From Skermanella rosea (GTDB taxonomy: Bacteria > Pseudomonadota > Alphaproteobacteria > Azospirillales > Azospirillaceae), in NCBI RefSeq assembly GCF_016806835.2, contig NZ_CP086111.1, positions 5,263,471 through 5,327,470 on the forward strand: DNA of 64,000 bases. Direction: 5' to 3'. The position numbers were made by a program, and so were the translations under genes. The notes under the pieces were generated by a model, which had not been told where the DNA came from, ran no database searches, and saw only the letters and a program-made list of their open reading frames with translations. Shown here one piece after another: positions 4,303-62,164 of this stretch (position 1 is the first letter of the stretch; each line of letters starts with the position of its first letter).

Positions 4303-4551
4303 CTAGCGGCAATCCCCCAGCATCGCCTCGAGCGACGGCGCGTCGAAGATATCGTCGGCCAAACGGTCGAGTTCCGCGAGGGAGGCCCCGCGCACCCGCC
4401 GGACCGCCCCCTCCGGGAGCGGACCGAACCGGCGCCCCAGCTGCCGGAGCAGCATCTCCGCCATGGCTTCGGCCCGGCCCTCGACCAATGCAGCGGCACG
4501 TGCCTCCGCCCTCGCCTCGTCCAGATATTCGCGGAGCGCCATCGACGCCAC
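4303..4551 (-). CDS. Possible internal Rpn short product (82 residues)
   Basis: Inside the core-deleted Rpn gene, AGGAGG (4565-4560, minus strand) lies eight bases before an in-frame GTG at 4551. Translation would give the C-terminal domain alone ([17 protein letters not shown]...). The full-length Rpn gene at 61.2 kb has a perfect AGGAGG at the equivalent place. Separately translated short C-terminal forms that inhibit the long form are known for E. coli Rpn genes. That this one is made is inference. Confidence 0.4.
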   Translation of the reverse strand: MASMALREYLDEARAEARAAALVEGRAEAMAEMLLRQLGRRFGPLPEGAVRRVRGASLAELDRLADDIFDAPSLEAMLGDCR

Positions 4552-4974
4552 TTTCTCATCCTCCTTCGGCACGACACGGCCCAGCATGGCCTTCAACCGC
4601 TCCCGGTCCAGGGCTTCGGCCGCCCCGAACAGATACCTGACCACCGACACGATCACCGTCAAGCCGGCGCCCGCCGCGACGGACAGCAGGCGCTCCAGCG
4701 TCTCCTGCGGGTCGGCGTCGCGGCCGGCGTATTTCAGCACCAGCAACCCGGCCTGCAACTCGGGATGCCGGGACAGCTCATGGTCGGCGATCGCCCCCAG
4801 GTCGACCAGGACATAACCGAAATCCAGCAGCCCGGCGTCCACCAGCCCGGCCGGCAACCGTTCCCGAAGGAACGCGTCGGCCACCCCGGGCTGGTCGAGC
4901 AGCTGCCTGGCGAACTGGTCGTGCTGCCGGATCAGACGCCGGCCGCCGCCTCCATCGTCGCTCCCATCGGTCAT
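4303..4974 (-). CDS. Core-deleted Rpn-family (PD-(D/E)XK) nuclease paralogue
   Basis: A 223-residue protein (ATG 4974, AGGTGG seven bases upstream). Residues 12-42 match the N-terminus of Rpn/YhgA-like nucleases ([23 protein letters not shown]). It then jumps straight to the C-terminal domain ([14 protein letters not shown] onward). Compared with the full-length relative at 61199-62164, about 118 residues holding the catalytic Asp and the E-x-K motif are absent, so it cannot be a nuclease. The C-terminal domain is well preserved, including [16 protein letters not shown] and [13 protein letters not shown]. It sits between ispH and thrB. It could be a decayed gene or a maintained C-terminal-domain protein. 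Confidence 0.8.
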
Positions 4975-35270: not shown

Positions 35271-35912
35271 GTGTCCGATACCCCTTCTGCGGCATCCGGC
35301 AGCTATCATAGGACCCGGCCACGGTCACTGCCGACCCGGCTTCGGGACGCCTATGGCGTGCCGGCCGGGATGGTTGAAGCGGGGCTGCTCGATTTCGGTT
35401 ATGTCCTGATCGACCTGGAGACGATCGCCGATGACGAACTGTCCCGGCATCCCGATCTTCAGGCGGGCCTGCTGGTGCTGAAATACGCGGGCAGCGACGC
35501 CGACCCGCGAGAAACCCTGGAACGGCTGCTGACGATCGGGGCGGCAGCCGGCCTGGCGGTGATCGTATCGGTGGTGAGATACTTGTTCAGCGCGGCGGAA
35601 ACCCTGGACCGCCAGCATTTGAGGACGATCTTGGGCCGCATCGTGCCGGAGGAGAGTGAATTGATCATGTCGAACGCGCTTCGCGAAGTCATGGCCGAGG
35701 CCCGCGCCGAAGGCGTGATCCTTAGCGAAGCCAAGGGCCACGCCAGGGGCAAGGCCGAGATGTTGCTTCGCCTGCTCGGCCGACGCTTCGGACCGGTGCC
35801 GGAGGAGACGGCCCAACGGGTGCGCGCGGCATCGATCGAAGATCTGGACAGCTGGGCCGAAACCATTTTCGACGCGCCGACGCTCGACGCGGTTTTCAAC
35901 GATCTTCATTGA
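35271..35912 (+). CDS. Second core-deleted Rpn-family paralogue
   Basis: A 213-residue frame whose residues from about 30 onward match the C-terminal domain of Rpn-family nucleases. The first 30 residues are unrelated, and the nuclease core is missing. It is strikingly similar to the copy at 4303-4974: [21 protein letters not shown] here and [21 protein letters not shown] there. Both share the same deletion junction, so they descend from one shortened ancestor. Conserved tail: MLLRLLGRRFGPVPEE and ETIFDAPTLDAVF. The true start may be inside the frame. It lies between dgcA and glyA. Confidence 0.7.
   Translation: MSDTPSAASGSYHRTRPRSLPTRLRDAYGVPAGMVEAGLLDFGYVLIDLETIADDELSRHPDLQAGLLVLKYAGSDADPRETLERLLTIGAAAGLAVIVSVVRYLFSAAETLDRQHLRTILGRIVPEESELIMSNALREVMAEARAEGVILSEAKGHARGKAEMLLRLLGRRFGPVPEETAQRVRAASIEDLDSWAETIFDAPTLDAVFNDLH
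35667..35912 (+). CDS. Possible internal Rpn short product (81 residues)
   Basis: GGAGGAG (35648-35654) precedes an in-frame ATG at 35667 (MSNALREVMAEARAEG...), with an in-frame TTG at 35661 at better spacing. This is the same position in the domain as the internal AGGAGG sites of the other two Rpn loci. The spacing to ATG is long, so this site is weaker than the one at 61.4 kb. Translation here is inferred. Confidence 0.35.
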   Translation: MSNALREVMAEARAEGVILSEAKGHARGKAEMLLRLLGRRFGPVPEETAQRVRAASIEDLDSWAETIFDAPTLDAVFNDLH

Positions 35913-58198: not shown

Positions 58199-58309
58199 AT
58201 TATCTCCTGTGGAATGTCTAGCGGTTTTCGCCCCCTGCGGCAACCCGCAAATCGCCCGCCCCGGATCAACCTGCCCGTATCGACCTGGGGCACCGGCCAT
58301 GCTATTTCC

Positions 58310-61180
58310 ATGGACATGACCGACACCGCCCAGACCGATTCCGTCCAGACGGAAACCGCCGCCAAACCCGCCGATGGCCTCTATCTGGTGGATGGCTCCG
58401 GATTCATCTTCCGCGCCTACCACGCCATTCCGCCGCTGACCCGCGCCGACGGCACCCCGGTCAACGCGGTGATGGGCTTCACCAACATGCTGATGAAGCT
58501 GCTGGCGGACCATCATGCCGAGGCGGTGGCGGTGGTCTTCGACAGCAAGCGGCTGAACTTCCGGAACGAGTTCTACGCCGATTACAAGGCCCACCGGCCC
58601 GAACCGCCGGAGGAGCTGAAGCCCCAGTTCGGCATCATCCGCGAAGCGGTCGAGGCCTTCTGCGTACCGTCGATCGAGCTGGAGGGGTACGAGGCCGACG
58701 ACCTGATCGCGACATACGCGCGCCTCGCCCGCGAGCAGGGGCGGCAGGTGACGATCGTCTCCTCCGACAAGGACCTGATGCAGCTGGTCAGCGACGGCGT
58801 CGCCATGCTGGACCCGATGAAGAACAAGCCGATCGGGCCGGAAGAGGTCTTCGAGAAGTTCGGCGTGACGCCGGACAAGGTGGTGGACGTGCAGGCGCTG
58901 GCCGGCGACCCGGTGGACAACGTGCCGGGCGTTCCCGGCATCGGCGTCAAGACCGCGGCCCAGCTGATCGGCGAGTACGGCGACCTGGAACAGCTTCTGG
59001 AGCGGGCCGGCGAGATCAAGCAGCCCAAGCGCCGTCAAGCCCTGATCGATAATGCGGAGCTGGCGCGGATCTCCAAGCGGCTGGTCCGGCTGGACGACCA
59101 AGCCCCGGTGCCGGTGCCGCTCGACGACCTGAAGGTGCGCGAGCCTGACCACGAGAAGCTGCTGGGCTTCCTGCGGCAGCAGGGATTCCGGTCGATCATC
59201 ACCCGGGTCGAGAACGAGATCCGCGCCGACGGCAAGTTGGTGGACGGCGCCTCCGCCCCGGCCGGCCCGGCGGGGACCGTGGCAGCTCCGGCCTCCGCGC
59301 CGGAGGCGAAGCCCCGGGCGCAGTTCGGCGGCAAGGGCACCTACGAGCTGGTCCAGACCGCCGAGGCGCTGGACCGCTGGATCGCCGCCGCCCATGCCGC
59401 GGGAACGGTTGCGGTCGATACCGAGACCGACTCGCTCAGTGCCTGCAGCACCCGGCTGGTCGGCGTCTCGATGGCGGTGGAACAGGGGGCGGCCTGCTAT
59501 ATCCCGGTCGGCCATGTCGGCCCGGGGGGTGCTCCGGCGGAAGGATCGCTCGACCTCAGCCCGTCCGACGCGCCGCCGCAATTACCGATCGCCGAGGTGG
59601 TGGCGAAGCTGAAGCCGCTTCTGGAAGACCCGACCGTGCTGAAGGTCGGGCATAACCTGAAGTTCGATATCCAGGTGTTCGGCAGCCACGGCATCCGGCT
59701 CTCCCCGATCGACGACACCATGCTGATCAGCTACGTGCTGGAGACGGGATTGCACGGCCATGGCATGGACGAGCTGTCCAAGCTCCATTGCGACTATGCG
59801 CCGATCACCTACGACCAGGTGACCGGCACCGGCAAGTCGCGGGTCACCTTCGACCGGGTGCCGCTGGACAAGGCGACCGAGTACGCGGCGGAGGACGCCG
59901 ACGTGACGCTCCGCCTGCATCACGCGCTGAAACCCCGGCTGGTCCAGGAACGGCTGACCACCCTCTACGAGACGATCGAGCGGCCGCTGGTCCCCGTCAT
60001 CGCCGACATGGAGGCCTGCGGCATCCTGGTGGACCGCGACGTGCTCAAGGAGCTGTCGGGCGACCTGGCGTCCAGGCTGGCCGAGCTGGAGACCGCGATC
60101 CACCGGCTGGCCGGCCATCCCTTCAACGTCGGCTCGCCCAAGCAGCTGGGCGACGTGCTGTTCGGCGAGATGGGTCTCCAGGGCGGCAAGAAAGGCAAGA
60201 CCGGCGCCTATTCAACCGACAGCGCCACGCTGGAGCCGCTGGCCGAGCAGGGCCACGACATCGTGCAGAAGGTGCTGGACTGGCGCCAGTTCTCCAAGCT
60301 GAAGAGCACCTACACCGACAGCCTGCAGCAGCAGATCGACGCCAAGACCGGCCGGGTCCACACCTCGTTCTCGCTGGCGATCACCAACACCGGCCGGCTG
60401 TCGTCAAACGATCCCAACCTGCAGAACATCCCGATCCGCACCGAGGAAGGCCGCAAGATCCGCCGTGCCTTCATCGCCAAGCCGGGCCATGTGCTGCTGT
60501 CGGTCGACTATTCCCAGATCGAGTTGCGGCTGGTCGCCGAGATGGCCGGGATCGAGGCGCTGAAGCACGCCTTCCGCGAGAACATCGACATCCACGCCAT
60601 GACCGCGTCCCAGGTGTTCGGCGTGCCGCTGGACCAGATGACCGGGGAGATCCGGCGCAAGGCCAAGGCGATCAATTTCGGCATCATCTACGGCATCAGC
60701 GGCTTCGGCCTGGGCCGCCAGCTCGGCATCTCGGCGGGAGAGGCCAACGCCTTCATCAAGAGATACCTGGAGCGCTTCTCCGAACTGGCCGCCTACATGG
60801 AGCAGACGAAGGAGTTCTGCCGGAAGAACGGCTACGTCACGACCCTGTTCGGCCGCCGCTGCCACATCCAGGGCATCACCGAGCGGAACCCGGCGCGCCG
60901 CCAGTTCGCCGAGCGGCAGGCGATCAACGCGCCGATCCAGGGGACCGCGGCCGACATCATCAAGCGCGCCATGGTCCGCATCCCCCCGGCGCTGGAGGCG
61001 GCTGGCCTGACGGGCCGCATGCTGCTCCAGGTCCATGACGAACTGGTGTTCGAGGTACCGGAGGCCGAGGCGGCCGAGACCTCCGATACCGTCCGCCGCG
61101 TGATGGAAGGTGCCGCGAGCCTGGGCGTGCCGCTGGTCGCCGAGGCCGGTACGGGACACAGCTGGGCCGACGCGCACTGA
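58310..61180 (+). CDS. polA: DNA polymerase I
   Basis: A 956-residue, three-domain Pol I for Okazaki-fragment maturation and repair. The N-terminal 5'-3' exonuclease is at about residues 20-300 (LYLVDGSGFIFRAYHAI, EGYEADDLIATYA, GVPGIGVKTAAQL). The 3'-5' exonuclease is at about 340-560 (VAVDTETDSLSA, with VLKVGHNLKFDIQVF and YAAEDADVTL), so proofreading is likely intact. The polymerase domain follows (SVDYSQIELRLVAEMAG, RRKAKAINFGIIYGISGFGL, LLQVHDELVFEVP). The ATG at 58310 is the probable start; 58316 is possible. Confidence 0.96.
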   Translation: MDMTDTAQTDSVQTETAAKPADGLYLVDGSGFIFRAYHAIPPLTRADGTPVNAVMGFTNMLMKLLADHHAEAVAVVFDSKRLNFRNEFYADYKAHRPEPPEELKPQFGIIREAVEAFCVPSIELEGYEADDLIATYARLAREQGRQVTIVSSDKDLMQLVSDGVAMLDPMKNKPIGPEEVFEKFGVTPDKVVDVQALAGDPVDNVPGVPGIGVKTAAQLIGEYGDLEQLLERAGEIKQPKRRQALIDNAELARISKRLVRLDDQAPVPVPLDDLKVREPDHEKLLGFLRQQGFRSIITRVENEIRADGKLVDGASAPAGPAGTVAAPASAPEAKPRAQFGGKGTYELVQTAEALDRWIAAAHAAGTVAVDTETDSLSACSTRLVGVSMAVEQGAACYIPVGHVGPGGAPAEGSLDLSPSDAPPQLPIAEVVAKLKPLLEDPTVLKVGHNLKFDIQVFGSHGIRLSPIDDTMLISYVLETGLHGHGMDELSKLHCDYAPITYDQVTGTGKSRVTFDRVPLDKATEYAAEDADVTLRLHHALKPRLVQERLTTLYETIERPLVPVIADMEACGILVDRDVLKELSGDLASRLAELETAIHRLAGHPFNVGSPKQLGDVLFGEMGLQGGKKGKTGAYSTDSATLEPLAEQGHDIVQKVLDWRQFSKLKSTYTDSLQQQIDAKTGRVHTSFSLAITNTGRLSSNDPNLQNIPIRTEEGRKIRRAFIAKPGHVLLSVDYSQIELRLVAEMAGIEALKHAFRENIDIHAMTASQVFGVPLDQMTGEIRRKAKAINFGIIYGISGFGLGRQLGISAGEANAFIKRYLERFSELAAYMEQTKEFCRKNGYVTTLFGRRCHIQGITERNPARRQFAERQAINAPIQGTAADIIKRAMVRIPPALEAAGLTGRMLLQVHDELVFEVPEAEAAETSDTVRRVMEGAASLGVPLVAEAGTGHSWADAH

Positions 61181-61198: not shown

Positions 61199-61414
61199 TC
61201 AGTTCGCCCTGCGCCCCGTGAACACCGCGTCCAGGCTGGGGGCGTCGAGGATGTTCTCGGCCCATTCGTCCAGATCGCCGTCAGGGGCGCCGAGCACCCG
61301 TTCCAGCGTCGATTCGGGCACGGCACCGAAGCGCCGCCTAAGCTGGCGCAACAACAGGTCGGCCTTGCCCTCTGCCTTGCCTTCCGCCTTCCACTGTTCC
61401 GCTGCGATCGACAT
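61199..61414 (-). CDS. Probable internal Rpn short product (71 residues)
   Basis: Within the rpn gene, a perfect AGGAGG (61428-61423) lies eight bases before an in-frame ATG at 61414. Translation would give only the C-terminal helical domain (MSIAAEQWKAEGKAEGKAD to the end). E. coli Rpn genes encode exactly such intragenic short proteins, which block the toxic long form. The strength of this SD in a coding region argues for real initiation, but it is not proven. Confidence 0.55.
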   Translation of the reverse strand: MSIAAEQWKAEGKAEGKADLLLRQLRRRFGAVPESTLERVLGAPDGDLDEWAENILDAPSLDAVFTGRRAN

Positions 61415-62164
61415 GATCCTGGCCTCCTGACCTGGAACGATCTCGGTCAGCGCGTCCCGAAGGACCGCCGCGTTGATCTCGTTCGGCTCTGCGATAAGGT
61501 AGCGTACCAGCGCAACCAAGTCATCAAAGCCGATGGCCAGCGCCGCCCGGCCGAGCTTCACCAGCAGCTCGTAAAGGTCGCCGCGGCGGCTGCCATGCTT
61601 CAGGATCAGCAAGCCGACCCGAAGCACCTTTTCGCGCGACAGGCTGGCGCCGTCGATGCGGCCAAGATCGGCCAGCGAGTAGCGGAAATCCAGGAGGTAC
61701 GGCCGCAGCATCTCGTCGCCCAGCTCCATCCCGGCGGCGAAATCGAGGGGTATCCGCCACTCCGCCTCGCCGTGATAGACCACGAGCGGCAGGATGGGCG
61801 GCAGCGGCTTCAGCCTGCCGTCGGCATCCCTGCCCTCCCGCTGGACCCACCACTGCCAGATCTTGACCTCGTAGCCGAGCAGCTGAAGACCGATTCGCGG
61901 TTCCGGCCAGGCCTTGTGCTCCAGCAGGGCATAGATGAAGGCGGCCCCGCCCGTGAGGGTGCGGGTCCGGTAAAGCCGATCGGTGCGGTATTCCTGAAGT
62001 TCCCGATCGACGAAGGAGCCGTGCTCCAGCACGGGATCCTCCGGGGACAACTGGCGAGCGACTTCTTCCGGAAGGCGCTCGCGGATCAGGGCGCCTGCCG
62101 CGCCGGGCTGATCGAGCAGGCGCTTGAAGAAATGGTCGTGGCGCTGGATCAGGCGGGAGGTCAT
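61199..62164 (-). CDS. Rpn-family recombination-promoting nuclease / putative transposase
   Basis: A 321-residue Rpn/YhgA-like protein with an intact PD-(D/E)XK core: Asp62 in EYRTDRLYR and the E-x-K motif Glu82-His83-Lys84 in ALLEHKAW. The N-terminal RLIQRHDHFFKRLLDQPG is typical. The C-terminal domain (about 150-321) includes LLRQLRRRFGAVPESTLERV and ENILDAPSLDAVF. Family members cut DNA, are toxic when unrestrained and are linked to phage defence. An AGGAGG site and ATG inside the gene mark a possible short product. The window also holds two relatives without the core (4303-4974, 35271-35912). Confidence 0.9.
   Translation of the reverse strand: MTSRLIQRHDHFFKRLLDQPGAAGALIRERLPEEVARQLSPEDPVLEHGSFVDRELQEYRTDRLYRTRTLTGGAAFIYALLEHKAWPEPRIGLQLLGYEVKIWQWWVQREGRDADGRLKPLPPILPLVVYHGEAEWRIPLDFAAGMELGDEMLRPYLLDFRYSLADLGRIDGASLSREKVLRVGLLILKHGSRRGDLYELLVKLGRAALAIGFDDLVALVRYLIAEPNEINAAVLRDALTEIVPGQEARIMSIAAEQWKAEGKAEGKADLLLRQLRRRFGAVPESTLERVLGAPDGDLDEWAENILDAPSLDAVFTGRRAN

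Follow-up and report, generated by a model that had tools for sequence, protein, structure and literature searches.

The minus-strand gene at positions 61,199 to 62,164 of the window, the 64,000-nucleotide stretch of the Skermanella rosea genome that was analysed, is probably (at a probability of roughly 0.8) a toxin-antitoxin gene in which a single reading frame encodes two proteins, a long Rpn nuclease of the RpnL type and a short DUF4351-containing tail of the RpnS type. This reading draws on features of the sequence and on analogy with the Rpn proteins of E. coli. Translation from about position 62,164 would produce the 321-residue nuclease, and separate initiation at 61,414, which is preceded by a much stronger Shine-Dalgarno (SD) sequence, would produce the 71-residue DUF4351 tail, probably in excess. 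The free tail would, by analogy with E. coli RpnA, pair with the corresponding part of the long form via the helix that holds a series of four-residue repeats. The paired tail would block the presumably toxic nuclease until some event frees it, and the system would serve phage defence. An overlapping toxin-antitoxin gene had already been proposed in the initial annotation of this DNA, and the proven start of E. coli RpnA at the homologous place, the SD found in relatives, the codon bias around it and the signs of purifying selection all argue for that proposal.

With the ATG at 62,164 taken as the start, the rpnL-type open reading frame (61,199..62,164, minus strand) comprises 321 codons and a stop. 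The PF04754 domain (Transposase_31, YhgA-like) spans 61,550..62,146 on the minus strand (residues 7-205, Pfam E 3.2e-44), and its score of 151.4 bits against a curated cut-off of 21 identifies the protein as an Rpn domain protein. The NCBIfam matches of the window protein were far under the cut-off, both for the RpnA equivalog model (47.9 against 583) and for PRK09956. PF04754 domains belong to the PD-(D/E)XK superfamily (PMC10327210). D62 is invariant and E82 is present in at least 90% of the sequences in alignment A1 (13 sequences), and both are invariant in alignment A2 (18 sequences); K84 is present in the window protein. D62 (61,981-61,979), E82 (61,921-61,919) and K84 (61,915-61,913, all minus strand) are candidate active-site residues with a putative catalytic role. 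Searching the PDB sequences with the window protein returned two matches, with E values of 0.38 and 0.5, that were taken as chance. No family of PADLOC-DB 2.0.0 matched at E 0.1, no known defence-system model thus fitting, and none of four candidate stretches was confirmed in viral contigs, which were scanned with a single protein so that close relatives only were detectable. Around the gene no promoter-like site was found in a scan for the sigma-70 consensus, a terminator scan was also empty, and RNA folding gave no indication that the region of the internal site is unusually open (z 0.49).

The elements of the internal site that had been annotated initially were confirmed in the sequence. 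AGGAGG at 61,428-61,423 (minus strand) is followed after eight bases by an in-frame ATG at 61,414-61,412, codon 251 of 321, which would open an rpnS-type product of 71 residues and a stop (61,199..61,414, minus strand). This start had also been placed at a domain boundary, and it does lie there, since PF04754 covers residues 7-205 and the DUF4351 match residues 261-311 (61,232..61,384, minus strand; Pfam E 1.4e-10), with codon 251 between both domains. In E. coli rpnA, AAGGAG is followed after 6 nt by the ATG of codon 244, and the solved RpnAS chain in crystal 7TH0 matches RpnA residues 244-292. Initiation at this E. coli site is proven, as changing K240, E241 and M244 abolished RpnAS (Zhong et al. 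2023, PMC10327210). A profile built from 18 relatives matches RpnA residues 5-256 (E 3.5e-31), running across the internal start and stopping about 13 residues past it. The profile alignment pairs the internal Met of the window protein with M244 of RpnA, and a large MAFFT alignment places the two one column off.

The tail itself carries DUF4351 at E <= 0.1 in 17 of the 18 members of A2, a set of our own choosing. Its four-residue repeats (KAEGKAEGKA, residues 259-268; 61,361..61,390, minus strand) vary in length among close copies, where the distance from the internal Met to the RRFG/RRFD motif is 26, 30, 34, 38 or 42 residues in 13 of 14 measurable copies; in this MSIA[ASD] group of 15 rows, L003 is off the four-residue step with a distance of 37 and L031 lacks the end motif. 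The group therefore shows the repeat variation that marks RpnL/RpnS proteins, located 8-20 residues past the internal Met. In the wider table of 156 rows described below, 34 rows lack the motif and the other 122 are spread over all four residues modulo 4 (7, 17, 61 and 37), so we limit the four-residue step to the close group.

The short product might act otherwise than as an inhibitor, namely as a structural partner required by the nuclease, in the way that Cas11d is a partner and not an inhibitor, although the Cas10d/Cas11d family is unrelated to Rpn. We hold this to be unlikely. The internal site and its SD indicate only that a tail is translated, not what it does, and the E. coli RpnA tail, an established inhibitor, matches neither DUF4351 nor any other Pfam family above the cut-off, so inhibition by a DUF4351 tail rests on analogy; moreover, the production of Cas11d from within cas10d, cited in PMC10327210, offers a precedent. 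What speaks against a structural role is that RpnS counteracts the toxicity and DNA cleavage of RpnL, that the tails of E. coli RpnA, RpnB and RpnP2 work against their long forms, and that the four-residue repeat variation reported for RpnS and tied to specific inhibition in RpnC (all PMC10327210) is present in the group of the window gene. The same source reports that RpnP2 gives protection against some phages. The E. coli complex dissociates at alkaline pH.

Conservation of the internal SD was analysed in a sample consisting of the window gene, 84 loci from other genomes, E. coli rpnA and 80 named loci among the matches listed, the named loci having been kept from a scan with at least 547 confirmed stretches. 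The 179 distinct ORF pieces yielded 156 usable rows (71 from named loci, 84 from the window together with the other genomes, and the single E. coli row), 17 pieces having too little sequence to one side of the alignment column and six lacking a nearby start codon. Some named loci share contigs with loci from the other genomes, and merging was limited to identical ORFs. A GC content of at least 62% is found in 93 of the 156 rows. The start was picked without regard to the SD, by its position near the alignment column and by its codon (ATG, GTG or TTG only). Choosing the site by motif and strongest SD was dropped because it favours the conclusion in advance and put some sites in the wrong place. 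An SD energy of -6 or lower was found at the homologous place in 146 of the 156 usable rows (69 of 71 for the named loci among the matches listed), compared with 73 of 655 other in-frame ATGs within the genes and 327 of 2630 ATG, GTG and TTG codons of the same genes. The SD of the site was the strongest, or tied for the strongest, among the in-frame starts of its gene in 124 of 156 rows, and in 138 GGAG occurred within the 18 nt preceding the start. With a mean of -9.4 the site had the strongest SD of 261 codon offsets, a signal which the offsets -1, +1 and +2 share by overlap; the mean at offsets more than four codons off was -3.1, and at any one of them at most 40.4% of the rows reached -6. 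By most measures, the SD is conserved among relatives to an extent that exceeds the chance models used.

The consensus SD had initially been called unlikely by chance, a claim that did not survive for the single gene. In 2000 synonymous redraws of the window gene, with the protein kept fixed and codons sampled according to the usage of the gene itself, 54% had an SD at least as strong (p 0.54), so the argument from chance fails for this gene alone. The same test gave p 0.042 for E. coli rpnA. Among the 156 rows, 18 had a synonymous p below 0.05, where about 8 were expected, and 42 had a p above 0.5; the mean of the synonymous null was -6.8 against the observed -9.4. Fisher combination gave P 5e-5 for 53 single-linkage representatives at 50% identity. 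It was not significant with clustering at 40% (15 representatives, P 0.39) and at 35% (4 representatives, P 0.87), levels at which single linkage leaves few sequences to combine.

The p of 0.54 for the window gene, the null mean of -6.8 and the lack of significance at 40% and 35% are what can be said for the view that no internal initiation takes place and that GC-rich codon usage, together with conserved Glu and Gly residues before the tail helix, mimics an SD. Such mimicry seems very unlikely in the light of codon phase and codon choice, and the homologous site in E. coli has been proven to initiate translation. In 119 rows the central A of the SD core occupies codon position 2, in 25 position 3 and in 7 position 1 (five of 156 rows have no SD core, with cores down to 4 nt counted), and the SD is encoded variously as Gln-Glu, Glu-Gly-Gly or Glu-Gly-Ser. 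Codon choice was compared with expectations from gene-wide usage, using one row for each of 74 clusters at 60%. At position -4, Glu was encoded by GAG in 29 of 31 cases (expected 17.0), Gly by GGA in 17 of 20 (expected 5.3) and Arg by NGG in 6 of 6 (expected 2.7). At position -3, GAG was used for 26 of 35 Glu residues (expected 20.3) and GGA for 3 of 11 Gly residues (expected 2.9), and at position -2 GAG was below usage, with just 3 of 15 (expected 7.7). The biases reported here are the clear ones among 25 residue-and-position tests. A count of TTG in 8 of 8 Leu start codons was discarded as evidence, as it is circular: CTG could not be picked as a start.

Codon phase and codon choice suggest that the SD is kept across the family beyond the need of the protein, a conclusion to which the window gene alone lends no support. 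The question posed initially, whether orthologues conserve the SD beyond codon constraint, is thus answered in the affirmative by phase and choice, but neither by the synonymous test of the window gene nor by the Fisher combination at 40% and 35%. Free synonymous substitution of AGGAGG in close orthologues would have told against the initial proposal; replacement was found to be rare yet present. GGAG is kept in 18 of 19 rows whose product starts with MSI, L042 being the exception, and in the more distant L053, L061 and L067 a synonymous CAAGAG stands in place of CAGGAG, so that GGAG is lost and a weaker GAGG (-5.8) is left.

Ten of the 156 rows are weaker than -6, and L042, L053, L061 and L067 are four of them. 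L150, L105 and the L012 piece have a weak SD; the L012 row (485 aa) seems to be an overlapping ORF in the wrong frame, was retained and counts against conservation. L009, L073 and a further copy within the window (4303-4974) are weak at the chosen start, a GTG three codons upstream having been skipped because ATG was preferred. The six pieces without a start codon within three codons come from an Acidobacteria-titled locus (L105), from planctomycete-titled loci (L156 and L165) and from Bacteroidales- and Draconibacterium-titled loci (L157, L158 and L161). Bacteroidetes rely little on SD sequences. L156, L157, L158, L161 and L165, which belong to low-SD groups, may use another start or make no short form. 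A subfamily with a TTG internal start after GGGAGGG was also observed (L005, L008, L052, L055, L063 and L069).

The relative strength of the two starts was compared after leaving out 15 of the 156 rows, the long form being given its best N-terminal candidate start. The internal SD was stronger than that of the best upstream long-form candidate in 133 of 141 rows and equal in 2; in the window gene the values are -10.3 for the internal start and -3.6 for the long-form start. Such a difference predicts a short form in excess of the long form.

The window gene is flanked by what we take to be polA (58,214-61,180, plus strand) and a CoA-transferase pair (minus strand). The order polA, rpn, CoA-transferase is kept in the genomes G000, G001, G002 and G004, and in G003 no rpn or scpB match was found within 1.5 kb on either side of polA. 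The window gene differs from the G002 copy by 39 synonymous and 7 nonsynonymous substitutions, with a dN/dS of 0.055. The tail evolves faster (dN 0.032) than codons 1-250 (dN 0.004), and SD and internal start are identical in both copies. As judged from these substitutions, the window gene is under purifying selection. That it should be a decaying remnant without present function is hardly credible, as this low dN/dS, the open frame and the conserved motif residues argue against decay even though broken or shortened copies exist nearby, two in the window and one in G001 with an in-frame stop.

There are 14 PF04754 matches in the genome of the window, and the five genomes of the genus contain 11 to 17 PF04754 and 9 to 15 PF14261 matches each, fragments included. 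One shortened rpn copy in the window (4303-4974, minus strand) has its first 37-40 residues or so joined in frame to a point near residue 157 of L049, which leaves out the region holding the nuclease motif residues; it keeps the tail and AAGGAGG (4566-4560), followed after eight bases by GTG (4551). Another copy (35,304-35,912, plus strand) lacks the first 138 residues or so, and its remainder is 94% identical to L049; AGGAG (35,650-35,654), six bases, an in-frame TTG (35,661), an ATG (35,667) and the DUF4351 tail are kept. The G001 copy (L016/L170) is divided by one in-frame TAA into a 105-aa N-terminal piece and a 223-aa piece with the internal site, and the adjoining polA is also in two pieces, so this is either real decay or an assembly error. 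Also in this genus, L029 and L056 are separate small ORFs downstream of an intact rpn (117 and 96 aa from stop to stop); they have PF14261 and a start of the internal type and resemble the stand-alone RpnS genes of PMC10327210. At L120, three pieces with a near-identical METFIDRYIAQGE tail start lie on one contig in what looks like an array of rpn tails.

The gene-within-gene arrangement itself is already known from E. coli. In the titles and abstract openings of the open-licence PMC literature, no description of SD conservation in DUF4351-tailed Rpn genes was found. A gene-within-gene antitoxin has been demonstrated in E. coli and in C. difficile; the present analysis carries the concept over to DUF4351-tailed Rpn genes, which are numerous in Skermanella, and adds sequence evidence for selection on the internal SD as such. 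Somewhat speculatively, the Rpn family may be a fixed chassis in which nuclease and internal start are constant across phyla and dissimilar tails, of the DUF4351 or the RpnA type, are swapped as antitoxins. The far stronger internal SD would then set the excess of antitoxin at translation, and shortened copies that keep the site, such as the two in the window, may persist as orphan antitoxins or as regulators of intact paralogues. Direct tests are now possible both of how strongly each start is used relative to the other and of whether tails are exchanged.

Among known systems, the window gene most directly recalls RpnL/RpnS of E. coli RpnA, with which it shares the PF04754 domain and, at the homologous codon, an internal ATG with its SD. 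It differs in its tail, which is a DUF4351 domain whereas the RpnA tail has no Pfam match above a cut-off, and in having EHK where RpnA has EHQ. Its close group shares the four-residue repeat variation of the RpnS proteins in PMC10327210. In the part of that source considered here, DUF4351 is named once, for separate stand-alone rpnS genes; these resemble the window gene in providing a DUF4351 tail as a separate product, but in the window gene the tail sits inside the nuclease gene. Like Cas10d/Cas11d, also cited there, the window gene would yield a second product from a start within a larger defence gene.
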